From Labilithrix sp. (lineage in GTDB: Bacteria; Myxococcota_A; Polyangia; Polyangiales; Polyangiaceae), in assembly GCA_019637195.1 (NCBI GenBank), contig JAHBWA010000005.1, forward strand, positions 62,001-126,000: a DNA stretch of 64,000 bases, given 5' to 3'. The notes beneath the pieces are model-generated. The model did no database searches and was not told where the DNA came from. It was given only the letters and a program-made list of their open reading frames with translations. A program made the position numbers and the translations under genes. Shown here in pieces: positions 5,659-12,842 of this stretch; position 1 is the stretch's first letter, and each line of letters begins with the position of its first letter.

Positions 5659-7695
<2,037 letters not shown>

Positions 7696-7793
7696 TCATC
7701 CACGTTCTCGAAGCTGGCACTACCGACGAGACGCGCGACGTGGCAGCGTGCGGCGATGCAACAGTTCGAGCACGCCCGCGCAGGGGAAGCAGC

Positions 7794-8255
7794 ATGAGCA
7801 CTCACACGGCGACCGTCGTCTGGACACGCGCCGCCGATGCGCCGTTCAAGGACAACAAGTATTCACGTGCCCACGACTGGCGCTTCGACGGGGGCACCGT
7901 CGTGCCCGCCTCCAGCTCACCGCAGGTCGTCCGACTGCCGTGGTCACGCGCGGACGCCGTGGATCCGGAGGAGGCCTTCGTTGCTTCGCTCTCTTCGTGC
8001 CACATGCTCTTCTTCCTCTCGTACGCTGCGGCGGCTGGCTTCGTGATCGATCGCTACGAGGACGAGGCCCTCGGCGAGACGGGCAAGGACGCGAGCGGCG
8101 TCGTGTCGATGCTCAGGGTGCGTCTCCGGCCGCATATCGCGTGGGTGGGCGACCCGCCGTCGCCCGACCAGCTGAGCGAGCTCCATCACCGGTCGCACGC
8201 CTCCTGCTACATCGCCAACTCCGTCAAATCCGAAGTCATCGTCGAGCCGCGCTGA
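7794..8255 (+). CDS. OsmC-family peroxide-reducing protein
   Basis: 153 residues. OsmC/Ohr proteins are thiol peroxidases acting on organic hydroperoxides in the cytoplasm. Both redox Cys are present: Cys69 in ASLSSCHM, preceded by the conserved acidic pair DPEE, and Cys138 in SHASCYIANS. Start at the ATG giving MSTHTATVVW, which has AGGGGAAG about eight bases upstream. It follows the AraC regulator on the same strand after 152 bases, so it may be part of the same stress-response neighbourhood. The fuller OsmC-like rather than Ohr assignment rests on the sequence around the first Cys. Confidence 0.9.
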   Translation: MSTHTATVVWTRAADAPFKDNKYSRAHDWRFDGGTVVPASSSPQVVRLPWSRADAVDPEEAFVASLSSCHMLFFLSYAAAAGFVIDRYEDEALGETGKDASGVVSMLRVRLRPHIAWVGDPPSPDQLSELHHRSHASCYIANSVKSEVIVEPR

Positions 8256-8520
8256 CCCATGGCTCTGGCGACCACGCTGTCGGCGGCCCCTCACCGCCCT
8301 TCGTGCCGTGCTCGAGGCGGCGAAGACCGTCCGCAAGGCCCCGGAAGCGCACGTGGGCAGCGTAGTCGCGAGCATCGTGGCGCGCGGCCGACAAGACATC
8401 GGCCCGACACGCCTTGAGCGCATCAGAATCGGCGTCGGAGGCGGCGTTCACGCCGACGCCGTGTTGTCGCGGTCGTCCGAACGATCCATCATGCTTCTTC
8501 GTGGAGGCCCATCGAGCGGA

Positions 8521-8910
8521 ATGAGTGAAGCAGCGTGCCTTCTCGACTGCCTCGAGGCCAGCTACCGACTCGACCTCGACGGCGCCGAGTACGTGACCCA
8601 GCTCGCCGAAGCGGCCGCGTCGCTGCTCGATCGCGGGCTCGGCGTCATCGCCTACACGTACGATGCGCGCGATCGCGCGCGCCCCATGATCGACCACTTC
8701 GCGGTCTCGAAGCGCTTCGATCCGAGCTGGCTCCCGCGGTTCGACGCGGCCGTCGAGGCCGCGTCGCTCGACGTCGGGAGCCCGTCGTACCCGGCGGGCT
8801 TCCACGTGTGGGAGCGCATGCTGTGCGGGCAGGCGAGCGCGGTCCCGAAGATGCGCCCCTTCCTCCCGCTCTTCGCGCACCTTGAACCGCCCCGGGATCT
8901 CGAGAGACCG
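8521..8910 (+). pseudogene. Truncated LuxR-type regulator (N-terminal part only)
   Basis: From the ATG giving MSEAACLLDCLEASYRLD the frame encodes about 130 residues that look like the N-terminal sensory region of a myxobacterial family of LuxR-type regulators (pattern of LEAxY.LD...L..A..LLDRGLGVIAYTYDA, recalled from family knowledge). The frame then runs into the end of an IS3-family remnant and stops, so the helix-turn-helix DNA-binding domain expected at about residues 300-360 is missing. It is a disrupted gene. A 265-base gap before it holds no other supported feature. Confidence 0.6.
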
Positions 8911-8912
8911 AA

Positions 8913-9160
8913 TTACATGAGTCCAGCCACCGCGGCTGGAGTCTCCTGAGCACGATAGTACGACTCCTCGAACTCGATCGGCGGAACGTAGCCGAGCGAG
9001 CCGAAGAGCCTTCGGCGATTGAACCAGTCGACCCACTCGAGCGTGGCGAACTCGACGTCGTCGATGTTCCGCCACGGGCCTCGGCGGCGAATCACCTCGG
9101 TCTTGAAGAGGCCGATGATCGTCTCGGCGAGGGCGTTGTCGTACGAGTCGCCAACCCTCC
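8913..9160 (-). mobile_element. IS3-family transposase remnant (3' end)
   Basis: The minus strand encodes the last 80 or so residues of an IS3-group OrfB transposase: GDSYDNALAETIIGLFKTEV, then RGPWRNIDDVEFATLEWVDW, then the ending SYYRAQ. Only the third acidic residue of the DDE triad (the Glu of ALAET) is retained; the two Asp-bearing parts and OrfA are missing, with the break near 9157. A seven-bp hairpin (TCCAGCC/GGCTGGA, 8922-8940) lies at its 3' edge. The downstream edge interrupts the LuxR-type gene. It is inactive and marks an old insertion. Confidence 0.85.
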
Positions 9161-9198
9161 GGGGCTGCTCGACGGAAACGCTGCTAGAGTTGCCATGA

Positions 9199-10167
9199 AT
9201 GGCTGGGGCGAGTGCTGCGGGACGGCTAACGACGTTTCAGTCGCTCGCGACGCTGCGGATCCTCAACATTCTTGCGGTCGCGGCCTCGCTCGCCGGAGCC
9301 ACCGGAGTCGTCCTCGGCCGTGTCTTCGGGCGCTGGTATCAGAGGACGGACGCCTTTGCGGAAAAAGCCGAGGTCGTTGATGAGTTCGTGTTCAGCCGAT
9401 TCAGCGGAACCAACGCCCTCCTCACGGCCGCAACCACGTTCGCCTTTGGCCTCTGCTGGGCGCTTCTTCTTCGATCACGGGCGACGACCCAAGACGGTCG
9501 CCGCCGAGGATGGCTCCAAGCGATTCCGCTCGCGCTCGCGAACAGCGCGACGGCGTACGGGCTCGTCCGCGCGCTGGAGCACGGTCCCGGGGGCGTCGTC
9601 GTCGGCGCGCTCATTGGAGCGACCCTTGGGGCTATTTGCTGGATCCCAGCGCTGATCGCGACGCTCGTCTGTTTCGGTCTTCCGATCGCCTGGTCGCAGC
9701 GGCTAGCGAAGAAGGGGCTTGCTGGAGAGGAGCGTGGCGAGATCATCGTGGGGGTGGTATCCGCGCTCGTCGCGCTCGTCGCCATCGCGCTGATCGTCCC
9801 GGTTCGTGCCTCCAACGCGACGTTGCCGCCGAAGGAGCAGCTCCTCGAGTGGAGCGGGTATCTCGTCGTCCTCGGCCTCTCGCTCATCGGCGCGGCGACG
9901 GGAGCCGGTGCGGCCATGTTCGCCTATCGGCGAGAGAAGGCGCGGCGGGTATTCGTTCGTGAGGTCGAAGCTGGTGCCGTCGAAGGCTTCCGCATCGACG
10001 CGAGCGATGAGGGCAAGGTCCTCATCCGGATCACGTCGATGGGGCAGGGCTACCGCGTCGCCAATTTCGAAGAGCCGATCGTTGGGCTCGACGAGAGTGG
10101 GGAAGTTCAGCGGGCCCTCGCGCTCGAGCCCGTTCGTACGCCTGACCCCGGACGATGGGCTCCGTGA
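9199..10167 (+). CDS. Polytopic membrane protein of unknown function
   Basis: 322 residues with about six hydrophobic segments: near residues 18-42, 72-92, 108-128, 133-160, 182-205 and 218-242. The last 75 residues are soluble and beta-rich (VEGFRIDASDEGKVLIRI). No family was recognised. The start ATG follows only a weak purine run (CTAGAG); another ATG four bases upstream is out of frame. It sits between the IS3 remnant and the recombinase remnant next to tRNA-Glu, so it may be cargo of a lost integrated element, although its composition is not obviously different from its neighbours. Confidence 0.55.
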   Translation: MAGASAAGRLTTFQSLATLRILNILAVAASLAGATGVVLGRVFGRWYQRTDAFAEKAEVVDEFVFSRFSGTNALLTAATTFAFGLCWALLLRSRATTQDGRRRGWLQAIPLALANSATAYGLVRALEHGPGGVVVGALIGATLGAICWIPALIATLVCFGLPIAWSQRLAKKGLAGEERGEIIVGVVSALVALVAIALIVPVRASNATLPPKEQLLEWSGYLVVLGLSLIGAATGAGAAMFAYRREKARRVFVREVEAGAVEGFRIDASDEGKVLIRITSMGQGYRVANFEEPIVGLDESGEVQRALALEPVRTPDPGRWAP

Positions 10168-11033
10168 AGACTTGCTCGGGCGACTGGCCTTCGTCGAACT
10201 GCTCCGGCGGCGTGCGCGACGAAAGGTCGGGGGGGGCAGAACGCCGATTAGAGGTTGCCTTCGTCTGGATCGAGAAACCTCCCGGTGTTTCGACGCACCT
10301 CCCACGGCTGGCCTGGTCTCCAGCTCGGGAGGTAGACGAACGCACCAGGTTGCGCCTCGATTAGAATGCCTTTCGTGTCTGCCCGCGCTCCGAGCAAGCG
10401 CCAAGCCAGCCGATGGCCAGCGCGTGCTCCTGCGGCAAGATCGAGTCCCACCGCGGCAAGACGAACACCCTCGAGTCGCGCGTCTACATCTGCGGCGCGC
10501 GCAAGGACAAGGGAGCCGCGATCTGCACGAACAAGCTTCGGCGCCCCGTCGTCGGCGTCGACAGGGCGGTCATCGACTGGATCCAGGCGAATGTGCTCCG
10601 CGAGGAGCTTATCGTGGAGACCTTGAAGGAGCTTCGCCGTCGCCTTGCCGAGCAAGCGTCCACGTCGAGCGGCGACCGGGAGCGCCTCGAGAAGCGCGAA
10701 AAGGAGATTGCCGCGGAGCTGACGAAGCTCGGCCATGCCCTCATGGCGACCGACGAGAAGCCGGCCACGCTCGTCCAGATGATGGCGGAGCGGGAAGGCG
10801 AGCTGGGGCGGGTCCGCAGTCGGCTCGAGGCCATCGCGGCGGCTCCGTCCGTGCTCAGCCTCGAAACGCGGTGTATGGAGCGGGAGGCGAAACGGCGACT
10901 AGAGAACTTCCGTGGCCTGTTCGAGCGCAACCCCGAGGACACCCGGAAGGCGCTGGAAGCGCTCTTGGACGGCCCCCTCTCCATGCGGCCGGTCGAGACC
11001 GCGAACGGGAGGCAATGGGAGGCTAGAGGCGTG

Positions 11034-11145
11034 GTGAAGACAGGACCAATCTTCACCACTGATGGCGTCCCCAACGAGGTCCGCTCGGAGGGAAAGAGGG
11101 GGGTGAAGGCAGGACCAACCTTCACCACTGGGGGCGTCCCCGACG
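11034..11145. repeat. Duplicated tRNA-Glu 3' end with hairpin (att-like)
   Basis: Two 43-base copies, 11034-11076 and 11103-11145, lie 69 bases apart with five mismatches. Each holds a hairpin, GTGAAGA/TCTTCAC in one and GTGAAGG/CCTTCAC in the other, with the identical nine-base loop CAGGACCAA; the changed pair is compensatory (A-T versus G-C). Each hairpin is followed by CACT and then GGCGTCCCC-ACG, which in the second copy is the 3' end of tRNA-Glu. This is the layout left by site-specific integration at a tRNA 3' end, and the neighbouring recombinase fragment agrees with that. Confidence 0.65.
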
Positions 11146-11207
11146 GGATTCGAACCCGTGTTAGCGGCGTGAAAAGCCGCGGTCCTGGGCCTCTAGACGA
11201 CGGGGAC
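11135..11207 (-). tRNA. tRNA-Glu (anticodon UUC)
   Basis: A full cloverleaf can be drawn on the minus strand. The acceptor stem is GTCCCCG paired with CGGGGAC plus discriminator G; the D arm reads TCTAGAGGCCCAGGA; the anticodon stem is GCGGC/GCCGC with loop TTTTCAC, giving anticodon TTC; the T arm is ACGGG-TTCGAAT-CCCGT. CCA is not encoded (genomic CCC follows the discriminator). It is preceded by a good sigma-70-type promoter and followed by a hairpin that may end transcription. Confidence 0.95.
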
Positions 11208-11224
11208 CAGAGAGAAGCGGCTCC

Positions 11225-11253
11225 TAACTACCGTCCAGGCGGCGCGGTGTAAA
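11225..11253 (-). promoter_or_regulatory. Promoter of tRNA-Glu
   Basis: On the minus strand TTTACA (11253-11248), 17 bases, then TAGTTA (11230-11225), a close match to the sigma-70 consensus in otherwise GC-rich DNA. The predicted transcription start would lie about ten bases before the tRNA 5' end. Confidence 0.6.
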
Positions 11254-11339
11254 GGGCTCGACGCGGGTCGCGAGCTCATGCGCTCTCGCCGGGCGCCGCC
11301 GGGGCCCGCCGAGCGCCGCCCCGGGCCGACGGGCCGTCC

Positions 11340-12842
11340 TCAGAACGGGATCCCGAGGCCGACGCGGAGGCCGCCGCGCGTCGCGGGCGATGCGTAGAAG
11401 AAGCGGCCCGCCGGGGCCTCGTCGTCGCGGACGGGGCCGACGCCGTGGACGTTGAGGAAGAGGGCCAGCTCGAGGAAGAGCGGGCCGACGTCGGCCTGCA
11501 TGCCGGCGTCGACGAGGAGCGAGAAGCCGACGCCCTTGCCCTTCTTGGTCAGGGTGCTGCCGGGCTCCGCGAGCTTCGACTCGACGCCGAGGCCGTGGAG
11601 GCCGAAGCCAGCGCCGGTGGCAAAGCGGATCTTCCCGGGCGTGACGAAGCGCGCGACGGGCGTGAGCTGCCAGTGGACCACGTTCGTCTCGGACTGGAGA
11701 TCGTCGGTCGGGCGGCGCTTGTACTTCGACTGCATCGCGCCGACCTCGGCGAGCAGCTCGAGCGCGAACATCTTCGCGACGAGGTAGCCGGCGCGACCGC
11801 CGACGGTGGCGCCCACGAAGTTGCTGCGCCGCGTGCCGTAGGGAGCGGGCTCGTCGAGCGGGACGCCGAGGCGGTAGCTCACGGTGTCGAGCGCGCCCGT
11901 GATGGCGAGGTAGAGCTTCTTCGGCTTCGGCGGCTTCATCGCCGGCGCGACGTACTCCGGCGGCGCCTCCCCGATGGCCTGAAGCGTCACCGGTCGGTCG
12001 ACCGACGCGCCTGCGGGGACGTTCGTCTCGAGGGTCGTCGTCTTCCAACCCGGCGAGGAGATCTCGACGCGATGCGCGCCGGCCGCGACCTTCCCGCGGA
12101 AGGTGCCGCGCTGCGGGAGCTCCACGCCGTCGACGCGGATGGTCGCGTCCGGCACGTTGGTCTCGACCGTCAAGAAGCCCTCGTTCGGGCCGAGCGGCGG
12201 CGCCGCCCGCGCGCCCGCCGTCGCGAGGACGAACGTGGCGTCGACCGGGGCGCCGCTGACGAGCGCGAGCTTCTTCTCCGGCGGATCGGCGTAGCCGGGG
12301 GCGCGCGCCGTGAACGTGTAGATGCCCGGCATCACGCGGATCGGACGGCGATGCGCGCCGGGCGCGAGCGGCGCGGCCTTCGAGCCGGGCGGCGCGGCCG
12401 GCTGGATCGAGACGACGGCGTCGCCCACCGGGCGCCTGTCCTCCGTGACGACGGAGAGCCTCACCGTGGCGACGCTCCGCGACAGCTCCGCTAGCTCGCG
12501 CTCGATCGCCGCGCGCGTCTCCGGCTTGAGCGTGTCCTTGCCCTCGTCGAGCGCCGCGTCGAAGGCGGTCGCCGCGTCGGCGAGGCGGCCGAGGCCCTTC
12601 AGCGAGAGCGCGATGTTCTGCTTGATGCCGGCCGACGGCTTCTCCCGGTACGCGTCCTCGAACGCGGCGAGCGCCTCGGCGTACTGCTTCTTGTCGTAGA
12701 GCTCGATGCCGTTCCTGAAATGCGCGCGGGCCGCGGCCTCGTCCGCCGACGCGGACCGAGGACCGAGGAGCGCGATCGCGACGATCCACACCGTCGCGAT
12801 CCTCGCGACGAGGCGTGCTCGGAGCGGCGCGCGCCCGGTCAT
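11340..12842 (-). CDS. Exported TPR/PEGA protein with C-terminal barrel
   Basis: 500 residues. An N-terminal signal sequence (hydrophobic WIVAIALLG, cleavage near SASA) is followed by two TPR-like units at about residues 38-105 (FRNGIELYDKKQYAEALAAF). Residues 225-292 form a PEGA domain (GFLTVETNVPDATIRVDGVE), a small surface beta domain often repeated in envelope proteins. From about 310 to the terminal Phe the sequence alternates like an outer-membrane beta barrel and ends GLGIPF, the usual barrel terminus. Its ATG overlaps the stop of the kinase gene by four bases (ATGA), implying coupled translation and a shared pathway. Confidence 0.75.
   Translation of the reverse strand: MTGRAPLRARLVARIATVWIVAIALLGPRSASADEAAARAHFRNGIELYDKKQYAEALAAFEDAYREKPSAGIKQNIALSLKGLGRLADAATAFDAALDEGKDTLKPETRAAIERELAELSRSVATVRLSVVTEDRRPVGDAVVSIQPAAPPGSKAAPLAPGAHRRPIRVMPGIYTFTARAPGYADPPEKKLALVSGAPVDATFVLATAGARAAPPLGPNEGFLTVETNVPDATIRVDGVELPQRGTFRGKVAAGAHRVEISSPGWKTTTLETNVPAGASVDRPVTLQAIGEAPPEYVAPAMKPPKPKKLYLAITGALDTVSYRLGVPLDEPAPYGTRRSNFVGATVGGRAGYLVAKMFALELLAEVGAMQSKYKRRPTDDLQSETNVVHWQLTPVARFVTPGKIRFATGAGFGLHGLGVESKLAEPGSTLTKKGKGVGFSLLVDAGMQADVGPLFLELALFLNVHGVGPVRDDEAPAGRFFYASPATRGGLRVGLGIPF

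Follow-up and report, generated by a model that had tools for sequence, protein, structure and literature searches.

Why are the 3' end of a tRNA-Glu gene and the hairpin beside it present twice, next to a fragment of a serine recombinase, in the genome of a Labilithrix species? The question arises from a stretch of 64,000 nucleotides (the window), which belongs to a genome of the same family as Sorangium and Polyangium. An earlier note on this DNA had proposed a fossil attachment site in which the structure of the hairpin was maintained. We consider it probable (about 0.75) that the locus is the eroded recombinase-side end of an island that was inserted by a large serine recombinase (LSR) and targets the 3' end of tRNA-Glu, with a replacement hairpin for the tRNA.

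The recombinase remnant and the two repeat units

A single tRNA-Glu(TTC) gene was found in the window (Table 1). Two direct repeats extend from its 3' end leftward, that is downstream of the tRNA; each is 66 nt long, they share 77% identity, and their start-to-start spacing is 69 nt. The doubling of the tRNA 3' end and the hairpin, as first noticed, is therefore real. Both copies contain the motif GGTGAAG[A/G]CAGGACCAA[T/C]CTTCACC. The degenerate hairpin pattern has three matches in the window compared with 0.03 in shuffles, and the only perfect matches in the whole 10.1-Mb genome are these two, which rules out a dispersed repeat. The earlier note had named copies away from tRNA-Glu without a neighboring recombinase as the mark of an unrelated repeat. 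The outcome does not refute the attachment-site reading: the unit of hairpin and core is absent elsewhere in its own genome, and the cores of relatives lie at the 3' ends of LSR genes.

The serine recombinase fragment described as touching the tRNA is indeed the C-terminal remnant of an LSR. Its ORF (10413-11252) runs into the repeats, and the frame stays open through them and the tRNA up to position 11252. The remnant shares 45% identity over 210 aa with an LSR of genome G024 (E 1e-53). Full-length relatives have the domain order resolvase, recombinase, and zinc ribbon; the Resolvase (PF00239) and Recombinase (PF07508) domains are missing from the remnant, and its zinc ribbon (PF13408) reaches 19.2 bits at a cut-off of 25.3. 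Because the catalytic and recombinase domains are lost, the ORF is, as judged by homology, a pseudogene, a fragment of an LSR and not a working enzyme.

On the plus strand, hairpin 1 lies within the reading frame of the recombinase (VKTGPIFTT), and the frame through it (GVVKTGPIFTTDGV) resembles the C-termini of relatives (GRYTLGPLLLTEGV in G050 and GKTGLSSMDGV in G024:C42). Copy 1 combines the last part of the recombinase frame with a displaced core, a decayed piece of the tRNA, and copy 2 is the equivalent unit on the real tRNA. The window thus holds an intact tRNA together with a displaced tRNA 3' fragment (the core of copy 1), the pair by which tRNA-gene islands are recognized, and genome G003 holds such a pair at the two ends of an island. 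The ends are 20.4 kb apart in G003, and the units of the window only 69 nt. A search for the core over 73 kb leftward of the tRNA did not find the far end of the window's element. The region to the left of the remnant is degraded and contains a fragment of an IS transposase (8916-9095, minus strand; rve_3, just below cut-off).

Table 1. Coordinates of the features at the tRNA-Glu locus, in positions of the window
Feature	Position	Strand	Evidence
LSR remnant: partial zinc ribbon and coiled-coil/C-terminal part	10413..11084	+	ORF, domain search, homology to full-length LSRs
Repeat unit copy 1: hairpin 1 and decayed tRNA-Glu 3' fragment	11018..11083	.	
Hairpin 1, closing pair A-T where hairpin 2 has G-C	11033..11057	-	Fold; reading frame aligned with C-termini of relatives
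Displaced, decayed att core copy GGCGTCCCCAACGAGGTCCG	11064..11083	.	
Repeat unit copy 2: hairpin 2 and 3' end of the real tRNA	11087..11152	.	
Hairpin 2, right after the tRNA and reading GGTGAAGG-TTGGTCCTG-CCTTCACC on its strand	11102..11126	-	Fold; loop and spacing as in native tRNA-Glu terminators; U-tract absent by scan
att core GGCGTCCCCGACGGGATTCGAA within the tRNA 3' end	11133..11154	.	Related LSR genes have the core at their 3' ends, in situ or displaced
tRNA-Glu(TTC), integration target	11133..11207	-	ARAGORN; Rfam RF00005, 57.8 bits

Related recombinases and the tRNA genes on which they end

Across 184 genomes of the order, 15 loci reached ≥35% identity to the query, and 13 of these carry the core GCGTCCCCAGCGGGATTCGAA, with 0-4 mismatches, where the LSR gene has its 3' end. 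The core at the 13 loci is mostly that of a real tRNA, which is tRNA-Glu(CTC) in two cases. Of the other two loci, L144 has a degraded core and L146 adjoins tRNA-Glu by its coordinates. LSRs of the window's family adjoin tRNA-Glu in G005, G024, G050, G004, and G029, and the recombinase frame terminates within the tRNA, antisense, typically with ...RPRRDSNPC. Three LSRs end on a core that is not followed by a tRNA (G024 C42, G024 C28, and G112 C78), and the LSR of the first element on G024 C1 ends on a diverged core. When named genomes were scanned, a single protein gave no relatives and an alignment gave ten; the named cases of LSRs at tRNA-Glu are Sorangium cellulosum So ce26, Polyangium fumosum, and an Acidobacteriota MAG, whose LSR has its end inside the tRNA-Glu.

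More distant LSRs, initially taken as controls, end on tRNA-Met(CAT), tRNA-Ala(GGC), or fragments of these genes; L151, with 36% identity over part of the query, yet ends on tRNA-Met. A tree built from 43 LSRs places 15 of the Glu-ending ones in one group (support 85/91) that includes Polyangium, Sorangium, and one Acidobacteriota. The Met- and Ala-ending LSRs form separate groups, and Glu-ending LSRs outside the main group occur in G003, G007, and the long-branched G039. Structured ends were noted at the tRNA-Met loci L149, L151, L153, L154, L156, L158, L160, and L161 and at the tRNA-Ala loci L157 and L162. A census independent of the family, based on PF07508 in 38 genomes, covered 30 loci (two of them running off the contig), seven of which end on a tRNA or a tRNA fragment. 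No relatives were found in viral contigs, and phages and plasmids held only distant LSRs, all below 60% identity and at about 25-31% among the matches listed.

The relatives also show the arrangement of the window intact, in keeping with the idea of a fossil attachment-site region. Congeners have a tRNA-Glu 92-100% identical to that of the window and are syntenic for >10 kb in the genes upstream of it; downstream, each is different. This pattern of synteny on one side and a break on the other gives the tRNA 3' end the appearance of an integration hotspot. G003 has an LSR of the second Glu group directly beside its tRNA-Glu, and at the far end of the island, 20.4 kb leftward, a native-type terminator is followed by GGCGTCCC and then by unrelated sequence. 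The two ends share with the tRNA only this 8-bp block, as expected for a serine integrase, cores of 5-8 bp being typical of such enzymes (PMC8092301). The att core shared by the relatives comprises only GGCGTCCC up to about GCGTCCCCAGCGGGATTCGAA. Aligning related loci, as the earlier note had advised, thus produced an island with both ends, but the unit they have in common is the core only, with the hairpin excluded. The G003 island (L114, G003:C43:698300-718250) carries at 7556-12550 the genes of a Qatuor anti-phage system (QatA, QatC, and QatD; PADLOC E-values <1e-118). Two contigs of G007 have in common the tRNA and 40 bp upstream of it and differ in what comes next, an LSR gene on one and the native terminator on the other; they may be the occupied and empty alleles in a mixed assembly.

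Serial insertions of whole LSR elements with displaced cores are common in the relatives. Three LSR elements stand in series in G110 and two on one contig of G024, each LSR being followed by a displaced core, and in G123 a C-terminal recombinase remnant with a core is left over ~100 kb from the tRNA. These arrays and decayed remnants are therefore direct parallels for serial insertion and decay. A tyrosine integrase as the true driver was rejected, as none lies near tRNA-Glu in eight genomes: PF00589 was not found on the tRNA-Glu contigs of seven draft genomes, contig C327 included, or within ≤300 kb of tRNA-Glu in the complete genome G123. At L056 (G009:C46, ~5856-7957), the native terminator and the 3' half of tRNA-Glu occur twice, 2 kb apart. 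No recombinase was recognized between the copies, and we read this stretch as an island remnant with a longer direct repeat.

The short spacing of the units in the window had been attributed to deletion or serial insertion. The parallels in relatives fit this explanation, but the data also allow a local tandem duplication, in which a 69-bp slippage or unequal event copied the LSR end, the hairpin, and the core, and a second element was never involved. The two units abut perfectly (66 + 3 nt) and preserve the frame (69 being divisible by 3), and their similarity breaks off abruptly on both sides, on the left 13-14 nt beyond the hairpin. Weighing these points against the serial insertions and the distant left-over C-termini of the relatives, we give the duplication slightly less than an even chance. 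If the locus is the eroded end of an LSR island, the doubling would have arisen either in this manner or by insertion of a second related element at the tRNA and its subsequent deletion.

The hairpin on the tRNA strand

The two hairpins were first described as differing at one pair only. This holds for the inner stem of 8 bp, in which a single pair differs (copy 1 A-T, copy 2 G-C), but copy 1 has a further, outer T-A pair at the place where copy 2 has G and A, unpaired. As native terminators share the G-C closing pair of copy 2, copy 1, with A-T, probably shows the derived state. One compensated pair alone is weak evidence in a hairpin with only three differences, and it is the wider covariation that bears the argument. 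Over six distinct hairpins, 8 of 8 pairs change on both sides while 100% remain paired, and a covariation score as high was obtained in 0 of 500 shuffles; most of this covariation separates the window from the other hairpins and thus reflects few events.

RNA folding, also suggested earlier, was run on the tRNA strand and gave z-scores of -3.7 (copy 1) and -2.4 (copy 2) relative to shuffles. A stable hairpin therefore follows the tRNA gene in the window, as in an intrinsic terminator. A terminator scan of the window found no U-tract after the hairpins, and most hairpins at clade-1 LSR ends are also without one; T-rich tails or U-tracts do occur at the LSR ends of G003 and G007 and, for native terminators, in G007 and G090. 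Behind tRNA-Glu, the native terminator has the form AACCCCTCG-NNGGTCCTG-CGAGGGGTT, with a T-rich tail where it was read (G007:C584, G009, G087, and G090, and displaced in G003). Its loop, GGTCCTG, is common to both window copies and to G002, and the stems differ. The spacing from hairpin to core in the window copies equals that of the native terminator (15 nt), and the spacing in G002 is 3 nt longer.

The 70 nt adjoining tRNA-Glu at 20 LSR ends (window included) have a mean z of -2.5 compared with -0.1 inside the same genes (rank test p 6e-8, uncorrected for relatedness). The window's own 70-nt stretch is not unusual (z -0.96), its signal being confined to the 43-nt hairpin. LSR ends at tRNA-Met or tRNA-Ala gave z -2.4 (8 loci) and LSRs not ending on a tRNA gave -0.3 (14 loci). 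All these z-score tests were devised after the pattern had been seen, and they used related loci. A first control set had a mean z of -1.3, but most of its LSRs end on tRNA-Met or tRNA-Ala. A generic feature of LSR ends was ruled out, as LSRs not ending on a tRNA lack the hairpin.

These results do not support the hairpin as a part of the maintained attachment site. The core shared by relatives lacks it, and it differs between elements; the hairpin is probably not part of the att core, since relatives' cores carry a different hairpin or no such hairpin. Nor does the structure seem to have been kept for the sake of attachment: the hairpin sits where the tRNA terminator sits and recurs at the ends of tRNA-targeting LSRs, and its pairing was more likely kept for the 3' end of the tRNA transcript. 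The hairpin lies antisense within the last codons of the recombinase, and because the recombinase frame passes through it, it is not the terminator of the recombinase gene itself. A role on the opposite strand, for the tRNA transcript, is the simplest reading, and the hairpin would then be a putative replacement terminator or 3'-end hairpin for the tRNA. As it lacks a U-tract, termination may follow another route; alternatively, the hairpin may have its role in protecting or delimiting the 3' trailer of the tRNA.

Both window hairpins may derive from the native terminator rather than from the recombinase end. Copy 1 would, in one such scenario, be the far-side junction of a later insertion whose element was almost wholly deleted, the recombinase remnant having been joined to it by a chance deletion. 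The loop GGTCCTG and the 15-nt spacing indeed match G007, G009, G087, G090, and the displaced terminator in G003, and in G009 a stretch of 2 kb is bounded on either side by the hairpin together with the 3' half of the tRNA. However, hairpin 1 interrupts neither the recombinase frame nor its alignment with relatives (GVVKTGPIFTTDGV vs. GRYTLGPLLLTEGV and GKTGLSSMDGV), and the stem in the window is wholly different from the native stem; we regard this scenario as unlikely. That no mobile element was involved at all, for example, that an ordinary tRNA terminator was duplicated by chance near an unrelated pseudogene, is very improbable. Terminator hairpins are indeed expected beside tRNA genes, and the loop matches that of the native tRNA-Glu terminator, but the pseudogene is a tRNA-Glu-ending LSR positioned exactly as in the relatives and the downstream side of the tRNA is a synteny break in all congeners.

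The loop GGTCCTG, read on the tRNA strand, is perfectly reverse-complementary to CAGGACC within tRNA-Glu (11110-11118 and 11041-11049 vs. 11182-11188) and is kept in the six distinct hairpins while their stems change. Over 141 hairpins downstream of tRNAs, such complementarity shows only a slight excess, and we leave a kissing interaction between loop and tRNA as a lead.

A proposed mechanism and its relation to known systems

We propose that the locus is the worn end of an island whose LSR would have catalyzed its integration at the 3' end of tRNA-Glu. In elements of this kind, the recombinase gene leads directly into an att core identical to the last bases of the tRNA, such that integration leaves the tRNA intact and the recombinase frame ends inside it, antisense. 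On the strand of the tRNA, the final codons of the recombinase gene form a hairpin just downstream of the tRNA. This hairpin occupies the place of the native terminator, which the insertion pushes away, and would serve the tRNA transcript as a replacement terminator or 3'-end hairpin; such service would explain why pairing is kept despite sequence change. For the window, we infer that the remainder of the element was then lost; the end with hairpin and core is present twice, 69 nt apart. Extending this to the relatives, we lean towards a widespread, unrecognized class of LSRs in the Polyangiales and at least one Acidobacteriota, for which the 3' ends of tRNA-Glu, tRNA-Met, and tRNA-Ala would be attB, with attP at the end of the integrase gene and an antisense replacement terminator or 3'-end hairpin.

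The locus works like a tRNA-gene genomic island and combines an LSR fragment with a tRNA target. According to Islander (2014; PMC4383910), only tyrosine integrases were known to target tRNA genes, and the mycobacterial Int-S sites described lie within ORFs (PMC8092301). A limited coverage of the literature after 2014 gave no contradiction of the Islander statement; an existing report may have been missed, and novelty is not proven. With serine integrases of the phiC31, Bxb1, and TP901-1 type, the present elements share the resolvase, recombinase, and zinc-ribbon order (in the relatives) and the 8-bp common core (in G003), but their LSRs end on tRNA genes. Like tyrosine-integrase islands of the Islander class, they have an intact tRNA at one end, a displaced tRNA 3' fragment at the other, and repeated insertions; unlike these, they have no tyrosine integrase nearby, and their integrase is of the LSR type, its gene reaching the core with its 3' end.

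An integrase gene that extends across attP is also known from Myxococcus phage Mx8 intP, where integration alters the C-terminus (Tojo et al., 1996, as cited in PMC4383910), and from SSV integrases, a likeness taken from the cited description; the enzymes described here differ in that they belong to the serine recombinases and come from Polyangiales and one Acidobacteriota MAG. Intrinsic terminators of tRNA genes resemble the hairpins described here in the GC-rich hairpin right after the tRNA and in the T-rich tail at the G003 and G007 LSR ends. They differ in that the window has no U-tract and that the hairpin at the LSR end lies antisense inside protein-coding sequence.

By a common rule, the use of tRNA genes is a trait of tyrosine integrases and not of serine integrases, and the sequences of several LSR clades point to exceptions, in which a short core suffices and long identity with the tRNA is not required. 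Myxobacteria have few genetic tools. If confirmed, these LSRs would offer serine integrases for a conserved, always-present target, which would be useful in this group, and would be a clear case of dual-strand coding, with the C-terminus of an integrase on one strand and a tRNA 3'-end signal on the other. LSR islands of this kind would escape island finders that consider only tyrosine integrases at tRNA genes.

The searches also brought up L180, a distant LSR relative in a Nitrospira MAG (PLBR01000148), whose end contains CCCGTTGGGGACACC, which resembles the tRNA-Glu 3' end in the opposite orientation. In G000 (C106:4151-12780), ~26 tRNA genes, several of them low-scoring, lie on one strand within 8.6 kb and form a tRNA array that is possibly mobile.
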